Part shown: piece by piece, positions 7,760 through 23,341 of the stretch | Numbering within the stretch: position 1 is the first letter of the stretch | How the letters are laid out: each line of letters starts with the position of its first letter | IMG/VR virus record: IMGVR_UViG_3300025276_000221 | Coordinates: 1 to 23,341 of that record | Length of the DNA: 23,341 nt | Direction: 5' to 3' (one strand) | Source of the DNA: a virus | Position numbers and translations under genes: made by a program | Notes under the pieces: model-generated | What the model was told of the DNA's origin: nothing | The model's database searches: none | Seen by the model: the letters and a program-made list of their open reading frames with translations, nothing else

Positions 7760-7773
7760 GATACTACTTACCC

Positions 7774-7795
7774 TTGCAAGCACTATTAAGTTAGT
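7774..7795 (+). promoter_or_regulatory. Candidate phage promoter or operator, copy 1
   Basis: TTGCAA at 7774-7779 is followed three bases later by CTATTAAGTTAGT at 7783-7795. The same 13 bases occur at 13605-13617, again just after a TTGCAA. Both copies lie in the two longest gene-free gaps that precede major blocks, here the SSB-exonuclease block. With a T7-type RNA polymerase in the window, a repeated intergenic motif of this sort may be its promoter, although it resembles the T7 consensus only in the CACTAT core of this copy. Confidence 0.35.
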
Positions 7796-7963
7796 CAACT
7801 TGCTCGTGGCCTATGTCGGAATAAAAGGACGTTAAAAGCGTCAGAGTGGTAAACGCAAGAGAGTACGCAATGACGTTACTTGAGCAGTCTCCCTGTAGAC
7901 TATAAAACCAAGGGGCTTGCGACCTAACGCTACTATGGATGACTTCGATTGGAAGAAGGCCAA

Positions 7964-8009
7964 GGGTATGCATGCCCAAGGCACAGGTTCGACTCCTGTG
8001 ATTCCACCA
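7964..8009 (+). other. tRNA 3'-end-like sequence (T-arm and CCA); possible att core, tRNA/tmRNA end or tRNA remnant
   Basis: ACAGG-TTCGACT-CCTGT at 7983-7999 is a perfect 5-bp T stem with a canonical 7-base T loop. It is followed by GATTCC, A and CCA (8000-8009), as at the 3' end of a tRNA or tmRNA, and preceded by a 5-base AAGGC that fits a variable loop. The hairpin GGGTA/TGCCC at 7964-7977 sits where an anticodon arm would be, but its loop is only four bases, and I could not fold a D arm and 5' acceptor strand next to it. Only GGAAT at 7818-7822 can pair with ATTCC. I therefore call it tRNA-end-like, not a functional tRNA. Confidence 0.45.
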
Positions 8010-8082
8010 TTATGATAGCAACGAGTTAGTAGCTCTACGCTGTCTCTTAAAACCCAAAACATTAATCAAGAGAATTATTATC

Positions 8083-8805
8083 ATGGCACAAGCAGAAAAG
8101 AAAGAGAACAATATCGTAACTGTAAAAGACGTTATCTACGTGTACAGCTCAGTATCTGTTCCAAAGTCTCAGAAGAATGATGACAACAAGCCACCTATTT
8201 CGGCTCCAAGCTCACCTACATTCAATCTAGAGTTTCATTCGTATGAAGTCAAAATCATTATTTCTGAAGAGAAGTACAAGAAGCTTAAGAAAGTATACAA
8301 AGGTGCTAAGAACTTTGCTAATGCAGATGAGCTATCTGGTGAAGAAGTATTAGAGAAGTTTGAAGGCGTTAACGAAGCTGATGTAACTGAAGACATGGTA
8401 GTCATTAAGTTTTCACAGACTGCATTAGTTGGTAAAGCTGACAAGCAAGGAGTTCGTAAAGAGTCTCGCCCTGTTAGCCAAATTGGTATCAAAGGTCGTG
8501 TACAGGACATGAATGGTCTTACTATTGATCAAGATACAAGTCTTGGTAATGGTACTAAAGGTCACTTCCAGTTCCGTCCAGTTAAGAGTGAGTTTGGTCT
8601 TTACCTATACCCACAGCTTATTTGCATAACTGACTTAGTTGAGTATGCTGGTGGAGCAATTGAGGATGACTTCGATTCATTAGGTCTAGAAGATCTTGAT
8701 GAGACTGATATGGTTGTTGAAGCAGAAGCTGCTACTACCCAAGAAGATGTTCAGCCTGATGAAGAGTACACTGCTGCTGACGAAGAAATCGACACAATGT
8801 TCTAA
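8083..8805 (+). CDS. Single-stranded DNA-binding protein, T7 gp2.5-like
   Basis: A 240-residue protein, close to the 232 residues of T7 gp2.5. Residues about 45-190 are strand-rich with interspersed lysines and aromatics, as expected of an OB-fold that coats ssDNA (FNLEFHSYEVKIII, then KGHFQFRPVKSEFGLYLYPQL). The last 45 residues are densely acidic and the protein ends in DTMF. An acidic tail with a terminal aromatic residue is the hallmark by which gp2.5 contacts the DNA polymerase and the primase-helicase. It is first in a block with exonuclease, endonuclease VII and phosphoesterase, which fits. Start ATG 8083 behind AAGAGAA. The identification rests on tail, size and context rather than on a catalytic motif. 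Confidence 0.78.
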   Translation: MAQAEKKENNIVTVKDVIYVYSSVSVPKSQKNDDNKPPISAPSSPTFNLEFHSYEVKIIISEEKYKKLKKVYKGAKNFANADELSGEEVLEKFEGVNEADVTEDMVVIKFSQTALVGKADKQGVRKESRPVSQIGIKGRVQDMNGLTIDQDTSLGNGTKGHFQFRPVKSEFGLYLYPQLICITDLVEYAGGAIEDDFDSLGLEDLDETDMVVEAEAATTQEDVQPDEEYTAADEEIDTMF

Positions 8806-11598: not shown

Positions 11599-13443
11599 AT
11601 GATCGAATTAGATGGAGGCGTTATATTGCCTTTACCAGCTAAGGCTGGAGGAATAACAAGACCTGTCAACATGAATGGAAATAGATGGAAAATAGAGAAG
11701 CCTGAGACATGGACAAGAGCATACATGCATTGCCTGTACTCGCTTCCTATACACTTTGACTTACCATTACACTCAGTTGTACCAAGGTTAGCTAAGAAGA
11801 TGCTAGAGGCCAGTGAGCCATTCCTAGTGGCTCTTAGATTCATGGGAGAGATGGAGTTACAAGGTTATGTTGAGTTCAAAAGAGGGTATGATGAGAGAGT
11901 AGTCGTACCGACACAAAAGTTTTTGGACCTTGAACTGGATTGCGAGAGAGCACCTGACTCAGTAGTGGTCTATCCAGTAAGCTCAGAAGAAATAATAGAG
12001 AGTACTCCAGTAAGAGGTGGAGTAAGTGGTGATACTAACAAGGATGCAACAGCGATTGCAGCAGACATGGCTAGTGAAGAATTCGAGATAAACGAGTTCA
12101 TGCTAGACATTGTTAAGAAATACCCACCCACTTTTGACAAGACTAGTTCAGCTTTTATGTACAAGAGGAGCCTAGATTCGGCTGAAAAGTTCCTAGGGAA
12201 ATCCTTCAAGTTCCCTTACTTTGCTGATAGTCGTGGAAGATTGTACGTAGTTACCACCTGTGGATTTACTCCTCAAGGTGCTGACCATGAGAAATCAATA
12301 ATCGTGCCAACCTATAGAGAACCCCTTACAGATCAAGGGTTTAGTGCTCTTATAGAAGCTGCTAATGGGTACTCTGAACAGGACTGGTCAATAGATACAA
12401 TGATGAACCATGCTATGTGTACGGACATGTACGTAGACGAATGGATGACTGCTGATAAGCCTTATTGCTATCTGGCGTGTGCTAAATTAGTGCTTGAATA
12501 TATGTGTGATAGGGATAAACCCTTACCAGCATTTATACCACTTGATGGTCGCTGTTCAGGTCTTCAACATTGGAGTGCAGTAGTACGCTCAGATGCCATA
12601 GTTAAGCATCTTGGTATGCATGAAGAAGAAGCTGAGATGGACATCTACGAGAAGGTTGCATTTGATTGGAGGGCTATCTTGCCTGAGTCGATGCAGCAAT
12701 ATGCTACTCGCAAGGCTGCTAAGGTCCCGGTGATGACTTGGGGCTACAATGCCACGATGATGACCTCAATGGAATGGATCAGAAAGCTGTTTGGAGCTAA
12801 ACAGGTATGGGATAAGGAAGAGAAAGTCTGGAACACAGTAGGAGAGGGGCTAAAATGGAAGGTGGCTGGCGAGTTAGGTATGAACCTATACAGACAGTTG
12901 CAGGAAACTTTAGGGCCGCTACAGGCTGCTGTGAGCTGGGTAAGCGATGCTGCTACTTTGATGGCTAAGGATGGCAACGTACAGATTAAGTGGCCTGCAC
13001 CAGATGGCTTCACCTGTATGCAAAGGAAGGTTAAGGGTGCGAGAAGGCAGCTTGTATGTAGGTTGTCCAGTGGAGAAGAATTCTTCTTAGAGATAATGGA
13101 TTTCTCAGTAGAAACACCCAACACTGACAAGCACAGATCAGCAATCGCACCAAATGTAATACACAGTTTGGATGCAACTCACTTGAGGATGGTAGCTAGG
13201 AGATTGAAGGAACTGGGCTTGCCCATGATATTCATTCATGACTCGTTTGCCACTCATGCGAACCACCGAACAGTGCTCTACGATATTATTGTAGAGGAAT
13301 TTATAAAACTATATAGCCGGGAGTATTTGGCCGAGTTAAAAGTCTATTGGGAAGAAGAGTACGGTGTTGGGCTAGACTCACCTCCTACACTTGGAGACTG
13401 GAAACCTGAGCAATTACAAGGACTTACGAGATTCTTTCTTTAA
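11599..13443 (+). CDS. DNA-dependent RNA polymerase, single-subunit T7 type, short form
   Basis: A 614-residue polymerase that transcribes phage genes from its own promoters. Catalytic landmarks align with T7 RNA polymerase: FADSRGRLY at 208-216 (T7 DWRGRVY region), D316 in DGRCSGLQH (T7 D537), R371, K375 and Y383 in the fingers (T7 R627, K631, Y639, with the same spacing), and H547-D548 in FIHDSFATH (T7 H811-D812). T7 RNAP has 883 residues. Here only 315 residues precede the first catalytic aspartate instead of 536, so much of the N-terminal promoter-opening domain is missing or reduced. ATG 11599 follows AGGAGG (11589-11594), and the gene directly upstream is a different frame and unrelated, so the start seems correct. 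It ends in FFL. Confidence 0.95.
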   Translation: MIELDGGVILPLPAKAGGITRPVNMNGNRWKIEKPETWTRAYMHCLYSLPIHFDLPLHSVVPRLAKKMLEASEPFLVALRFMGEMELQGYVEFKRGYDERVVVPTQKFLDLELDCERAPDSVVVYPVSSEEIIESTPVRGGVSGDTNKDATAIAADMASEEFEINEFMLDIVKKYPPTFDKTSSAFMYKRSLDSAEKFLGKSFKFPYFADSRGRLYVVTTCGFTPQGADHEKSIIVPTYREPLTDQGFSALIEAANGYSEQDWSIDTMMNHAMCTDMYVDEWMTADKPYCYLACAKLVLEYMCDRDKPLPAFIPLDGRCSGLQHWSAVVRSDAIVKHLGMHEEEAEMDIYEKVAFDWRAILPESMQQYATRKAAKVPVMTWGYNATMMTSMEWIRKLFGAKQVWDKEEKVWNTVGEGLKWKVAGELGMNLYRQLQETLGPLQAAVSWVSDAATLMAKDGNVQIKWPAPDGFTCMQRKVKGARRQLVCRLSSGEEFFLEIMDFSVETPNTDKHRSAIAPNVIHSLDATHLRMVARRLKELGLPMIFIHDSFATHANHRTVLYDIIVEEFIKLYSREYLAELKVYWEEEYGVGLDSPPTLGDWKPEQLQGLTRFFL

Positions 13444-13450
13444 AGTCCGT

Positions 13451-13470
13451 TAAACCAGTGCTATAGGAAG
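13451..13470 (+). promoter_or_regulatory. Candidate T7-type promoter upstream of terminase genes
   Basis: CAGTGCTATAGGAAG at 13456-13470 resembles the start-site half of T7-family promoters (T7 CACTATAGGGAG, SP6 CACTATAGAAG). With initiation at G13466 the transcript would begin GGAAGAG, in the style of T7 transcripts, and enter an 11-bp hairpin at once. The upstream specificity half does not match T7, which is expected for a divergent polymerase. Single copy of this exact form in the window. Confidence 0.4.
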
Positions 13471-23193: not shown

Positions 23194-23341
23194 TGGCCTT
23201 ACAAACTGAGGGAACAATAAAGCTGTCTGATATAAGGACTGAGATGGGAAACACTGCTGGTGATGACCGCTTGAGTGAGTACTATAGGAAGGGCCGCAAC
23301 AGTAAGCCCTGTCCAACTAATGCCAAGAATGATAACATACC
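23193..23341 (+). CDS. Putative tail protein, N-terminal part (runs off the window)
   Basis: Starts at ATG 23193, overlapping the previous TAA, with GGAGG at 23180-23185. Only about 49 residues are visible: ALQTEGTIKLSDIRTEMG, then GDDRLSEYYRKGR. The K-L-S-D-I-R-x-E-M/F-G start and the LSEYYRKG segment recur at the N-terminus of many phage tail or fibre proteins, and position after the fibre block fits. The product cannot be named from this part. Confidence 0.62.
   Translation, partial: MALQTEGTIKLSDIRTEMGNTAGDDRLSEYYRKGRNSKPCPTNAKNDNI

Follow-up and report, generated by a model that had tools for sequence, protein, structure and literature searches.

The segment at positions 7852-8009 of the window, by which we mean the whole 23,341-base linear virus record analysed here, reads as a non-coding RNA module, structured and conserved, within the leader upstream of a phage single-stranded DNA-binding protein (SSB) gene, a conclusion supported by homology and covariation. 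The module joins a pseudoknot domain to a tRNA-like domain. We tentatively favor the explanation, with somewhat less than even confidence, that the tRNA-like domain acts as a signal at which host enzymes would cut the leader RNA and form its ends, a mechanism that we infer.

The module lies in a non-coding gap ahead of a predicted SSB gene

The gap follows genes for a DNA primase/helicase, a DNA polymerase and a dATP/dGTP diphosphohydrolase-like protein, and precedes the gene for a 240-aa protein, after which come a 5'-3' exonuclease, endonuclease VII, a phosphoesterase, a T7-type RNA polymerase and a terminase. The closest isolates to the DNA polymerase include Zobellviridae, for example Pseudomonas phage PA11 and Salinivibrio phage CW02 (46-47% identical). 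No plus-strand open reading frame (ORF) of at least 50 aa was found in 7836-8082. The 240-aa protein had no family match above cut-off; its AlphaFold model (pLDDT 75) matched T7 gp2.5 (1je5, E = 8e-6) and the Enc34 SSB (5odl, E = 2e-5) in Foldseek, and its tail is acidic with F as the last residue. Because the predicted fold matches these two proteins, it is most likely a phage SSB. The T7-like promoter sequence AGTNCTATAGGAAG has two exact copies in the window, and the gap contains no match to the motif better than chance, consistent with the gap being transcribed from upstream. The features are as follows, L033 being a relative described below.

7760-8082, + strand: non-coding gap with the RNA module, 5' of the SSB gene (ORF scan and L033 alignment)
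7852-7932, + strand: conserved pseudoknot domain, covariance model R1 (R1 scores and pair conservation)
7862-7880, + strand: hairpin A, AGTACG / CG(T)TACT (C-G in the window, T-A in L033)
7886-7901, + strand: pseudoknot stem 1, AGTCT / AGACT (AGCCT / AGGCT in L033, a compensatory change)
7891-7915, + strand: pseudoknot stem 2, CCC (7891-7893) with GGG (7913-7915), and an A-rich connecting loop
7919-7930, + strand: hairpin C, GCG-ACCTAA-CGC (GGCA-ACCTAC-TGCC in L033; one compensatory pair, G-C to A-T)
7936-8009, + strand: tRNA-like domain lacking a normal anticodon arm (cloverleaf minimum-energy fold; Rfam tRNA below cut-off)
7943-7958, + strand: D-like arm CTTC-GATTGGAA-GAAG with GG in the loop (sequence reading; present in the minimum-energy fold)
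7959-7982, + strand: third arm GCC-AA-GGGTA-TGCA-TGCCC-AA-GGC with a tetraloop (predicted fold)
7978-7982, + strand: AAGGC, variable-loop-like in the original prediction
7983-7999, + strand: T arm ACAGG-TTCGACT-CCTGT (stem 7983-7987 / 7995-7999, loop 7988-7994)
8000-8009, + strand: 3' strand and CCA end, GATTCCACCA (sequence; tail loosely conserved)
8083-8805, + strand: SSB gene, T7 gp2.5-like (AlphaFold and Foldseek; acidic tail)
13457 (13457-13470): T7-like phage promoter site AGTGCTATAGGAAG, exact copy of AGTNCTATAGGAAG
23278 (23278-23291): T7-like phage promoter site AGTACTATAGGAAG, exact copy of AGTNCTATAGGAAG

The tRNA-like domain departs from tRNA and tmRNA

The original prediction had pointed to the T stem, the TTCGACT loop, AAGGC and the CCA end, all of which we confirmed. 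The combination of a five-pair T arm, a consensus T loop and a correctly spaced CCA occurs once in the window, and the chance of a T arm, loop and ATTCCACCA end was 0.0025 per window in order-1 Markov controls. The CCA tail reads CAGCTTCCCCCA in L033, with two more C in a second carrier, L114.

The minimum-energy fold predicted for 7936-8009 is a four-arm cloverleaf, although its energy is unexceptional (z = -1.2) and that of the whole gap ordinary (z = -0.24). The earlier statement that no convincing 5' half accompanies the T arm needs correction, as the cloverleaf has a D-like arm on the 5' side. The window acceptor has only four Watson-Crick pairs in the cloverleaf (TGGA/TCCA plus mismatches), the best 7-nt 5' partners pair at 5/7 positions in place of a 7-bp acceptor, and the best 5' partner of the 3' strand is no better than shuffled upstream sequence (286/300 controls). 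The distant 5' strand proposed originally, GGAAT, is present at 7818-7822 but lies outside the conserved part, which starts near 7853. In the predicted fold, the third arm closes on the TGCA tetraloop and not on a 7-nt anticodon loop. With no anticodon loop on this arm, which takes the anticodon position, the tRNA-like domain is unlikely to be used in decoding.

ARAGORN found no tRNA or tmRNA in the window, and Rfam gave no window match at the gathering threshold. With the threshold opened, the Rfam tRNA model scored 14.5 bits (E = 5.5; cut-off 29), and the tmRNA model had no window match at the relaxed threshold. A tRNA or tmRNA identity was thus rejected by both programs, also at a relaxed E-value. 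A group I intron, a riboswitch and other Rfam families were likewise discarded, having no match. Among the options first offered, an unusual tRNA or tmRNA came closest, but with the wrong 5' strand and with failed covariance-model tests for both RNAs. The module shares with tRNA (RF00005) a cloverleaf minimum-energy fold, a CCA end, a T arm with its loop and a D-like arm containing GG, and differs from it in the lack of an anticodon loop, the short and weak acceptor and the low score.

The junction of a pseudoknot domain with a tRNA-like 3' domain also recalls tmRNA (RF00023), and the Rfam tmRNA model matched L033 at 12823-12920 (E = 0.001). One alternative is a trans-acting stable RNA, tmRNA-like or an ornate phage RNA, released from the transcript, and relatives have larger structured RNAs beside tRNA-like elements (L012 124-730, z = -6.2). 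However, the L033 match covers the acceptor and T arm only, with the model largely deleted, and its 14.8 bits are far under the cut-off of 47; inspection by eye revealed no tag reading frame between pseudoknots, ARAGORN called no tmRNA, and the pseudoknot of the module lies 5' of the tRNA-like part, unlike in tmRNA. We consider a trans-acting RNA improbable. GOLLD and ROOL are ornate structured phage RNAs near tRNAs (PMC12286853), a likeness that applies mainly to the L012 RNA; unlike them, the window and its relatives gave no Rfam match. The region L012 124-730 (identical to L041 4124-4730), strongly structured and directly after a tRNA-like gene, and L026 2518-3025 are large non-coding regions ahead of seemingly the same early gene. 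Each of the two regions terminates in a GAGCAACC..GCTC hairpin; neither has an Rfam match, and they may represent a new large phage RNA.

The original prediction also considered an attP core matching the 3' end of a host tRNA or tmRNA. The element does look like a textbook tRNA 3' end, and temperate phages have attP sites of the tRNA-3'-end type. However, none of 84,980 species genomes from bacteria and archaea contained the pattern ACAGGTTCGACTCCTGT-N(1-3)-ATTCCACCA (26 fixed bases), nor did phage blastn searches support attP. The search for an integrase beyond the window covered 15 clade records, of which three measure 56-58 kb and several, like the window's record, are fragments; it yielded no tyrosine integrase. 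Moreover, the podovirus gene set is of the virulent type, and a conserved RNA module surrounds the sequence, the conserved unit reaching about 80 bases beyond the 5' edge of the tRNA-like domain. An attP core is consequently very improbable.

Homologs and paired changes define the module

Clade loci were collected through searches with DNA polymerase, exonuclease and SSB. Most members lack the module, and their SSB leaders are mostly short or different. An exact DNA match of the element in viral contigs was also sought, and none was found. L033, whose DNA polymerase is 65% identical, has about 780 non-coding bases ahead of its SSB gene, and window 7853-8014 is homologous to part of this leader (nhmmer E = 2.3e-5; 3.6e-5 with the larger set). 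The window, L033, L114 and L115 share the same order of the pseudoknot domain, the T-armed tRNA-like domain and the SSB gene. L115 is nearly identical to L033 across the module stretch. L114 is a natural mosaic that retains the module between exchanged flanks and lacks L033's second T arm, placing the module borders at roughly L033 12760-12957. The alignment of the window with L033 contains length changes of 1 and 2 bases, which are not multiples of three, indicating that the module is not a conserved reading frame.

All 17 pairs of the pseudoknot domain are kept (17/17) and 3 are changed on both sides, compared with 0 in slid controls, a comparison biased toward the domain structure because the structure was chosen on these same sequences. 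Pseudoknot stem 2 is pairable in all members but invariant, so covariation is uninformative for it. The T stem is ACAGG/CCTGT in the window and AAGGG/CCCTT in L033, which amounts to two compensations around an identical TTCGACT loop; because only two lineages are represented, these changes are suggestive rather than strong support for conserved pairing. The five compensatory pairs, three in the pseudoknot domain and two in the T stem, come from one comparison, that of the window with the L033/L114/L115 lineage.

Model R1 scored 86.5 bits on the window, 105.3 on L033 and 103.1 on L114, high by construction as the model was built from them, and 61.8 bits on L115, a partial copy outside model building that is near-identical to L033. 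Its confident matches were confined to four contigs (the window, L033, L114 and, in part, L115), and the pseudoknot motif was not found in bacterial genomes. Matches in L052, L053 and L130 lie inside coding sequence and were taken as chance. L109 and L111, from an unrelated phage, reached 23.5 bits; they were fetched by pattern, which biases the score, and were not counted as members. Their tandem small pseudoknot-like units (AGGCTCCCAAGCCTATAAA), at L109 3139-3240 (-) and L111 1598-1699 (-) ahead of a coding gene, resemble the window pseudoknot, possibly by chance.

These comparisons bear on the earlier suggestion of a tRNA relic. A decaying tRNA gene without any remaining role would account for the incomplete cloverleaf, the 14.5 bits as tRNA and the lost anticodon loop, and it agrees with the presence of some canonical or near-canonical tRNAs in the clade (L044 2379; L012 51). 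However, simple decay fits poorly with paired changes that keep the T stem and the upstream domain across divergent lineages, and with the same downstream gene across carriers; a conserved pseudoknot domain would be unexpected on a relic. On the two lineages known, we regard a relic as quite improbable.

T-armed elements recur in the clade

In 493 kb of clade loci, the strict T-arm pattern gave nine non-coding matches on the gene strand (including the L114 copy of the L033 element) and 0 on the opposite strand, against an expectation of 0.02 in non-coding sequence. Four further matches fall inside ORF calls, two in L044 and one each in L027 and L131; the L044 match at 2379 is a canonical tRNA-Met, the L027 match lies within a 111-nt tRNA-like element, and the L131 match is coding and due to chance. 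The T-armed elements of the clade lie in gaps ahead of the SSB gene or other early genes, and most have odd or missing anticodon arms. A perfect 7-bp acceptor is found in the second copy of L033, which ends about 30 nt before the SSB start, and in L026, L041, L044 and L027. The middles were read by eye and are less certain than the T arms: the second L033 element has a tetraloop arm, L026 an enlarged one, L012/L041 a 6-nt loop, and L027 and perhaps L035 long inserts.

Several observations concern tRNA genes and tRNA-related enzymes in these phages. L012 51-123 (L041 4051) scores 47 bits as a tRNA with an anticodon loop of apparently 6 (or 8) bases, to which ARAGORN cannot assign a name. Pseudomonas phage PA11 (L135) has an unannotated tRNA-Arg(TCT)-like gene at about 47674-47755 with a 7-bp acceptor, a T arm and a GCCA end, seemingly without a normal D arm. 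No CCA-adding enzyme was found above cut-off in the clade phages. The gene at L035 953-1519, directly 3' of a T-armed element, encodes a protein with a GGYPRDLHFGRTPRDMDV motif like that of CCA-adding/poly(A) nucleotidyltransferases and without a Pfam match, and CW02 gp33 and Phriendly 029 have weak PF01743 matches.

A possible translational operator or processing signal

T4 gp32, the SSB of that phage, represses or paces its own translation at a pseudoknot in its own leader. By analogy, the SSB protein or host factors could bind the pseudoknot and leader of the module and repress or pace SSB translation, with the T arm as a structural part. Such a gp32-like cis operator stays the main rival because the SSB gene is downstream and pseudoknots are predicted in several other SSB leaders. 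The gene directly downstream in the window encodes the gp2.5-like SSB, and several other SSB leaders of the clade gave good H-type pseudoknot scores relative to shuffles (0/30 for L044, L133 and L049, 1/30 for L033 and 2/30 for L043). The L043 and L044 leaders share one pseudoknot by sequence, and other leaders share a different motif. On the other hand, the window pseudoknot, although the best H-type of its leader in a simple scan, is not significant against shuffles (10/30). It is separated from the downstream start codon by about 170-200 nt in the window and by far more in L033, unlike the T4 gene 32 operator, and an operator leaves the additional tRNA-like end unexplained. We know of no report of T7 gp2.5 autoregulating in the manner of gp32. 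On balance, we judge this explanation unlikely.

Other SSB leaders contain elements of their own. The pseudoknot of L043 6482-6606 and L044 13153-13328 is of the H type (CAAGTTGGTAGAYCTTGG..CTACCA) and lies just before the SSB start. The motif GTGAYGAAGTANCNNTAC was found at L033 12611, L035 15663, L037 10299, L044 13190, L114 83, L124 708, L131 9718 and L041 2335, ahead of the SSB gene in 7/8 contigs and mostly with a downstream AAAACCATC-like strand. From its sequence it looks like a conserved cis RNA element; the window has no match to it beyond chance.

Where the module lies, its conservation and the tRNA-like nature of its 3' domain all agree with recognition of the RNA by host enzymes of tRNA processing. 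The module-to-SSB-start distance varies among carriers (73, about 276 and about 361 nt), a spread easier to reconcile with processing than with an operator beside the ribosome site. A comparable arrangement is the tRNA-like structure of MALAT1 (mascRNA, RF01684), whose fold is anticodon-poor, marks the boundary of a longer transcript and is an RNase P substrate in that system. It is however eukaryotic, and L033 scores only 16.9 bits (E = 2) with its model. According to works cited in PMC11143913, RNase P acts on tRNA-like structures and on polycistronic messages. In the processing model, the module would be transcribed together with the middle genes and its tRNA-like domain would mark where the RNA is cut and its ends are formed. 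The T arm and acceptor stack would be the features that host RNase P and 3' tRNA-processing enzymes recognise, and cleavage would separate the SSB message from the upstream RNA. The product would be an SSB message with a defined 5' end or, alternatively, a small, stable RNA made up of the pseudoknot and the tRNA-like domain. Counting against processing are the poor window acceptor, the ordinary fold energy, the variable distance to the SSB start and the absence of the module from most clade members, as well as the better acceptor partner in L033, GGGGCTG (12823), which overlaps the second stem of the pseudoknot.

Implications

It is conceivable, if rather doubtful, that the module belongs to a new phage RNA class in a lineage of Zobellviridae-related podoviruses, combining a pseudoknot with an anticodon-less tRNA-like domain and serving as movable intergenic punctuation for RNA processing or regulation, with several independent versions in this one clade. 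Non-decoding tRNA-like structures are familiar from RNA viruses and from a few long RNAs, and far less so from DNA phages. Matches of phage gaps to tRNA 3' ends need not mean attP sites or relics. If such modules are cut by host tRNA enzymes, these phages would shape their messages through tRNA mimicry.
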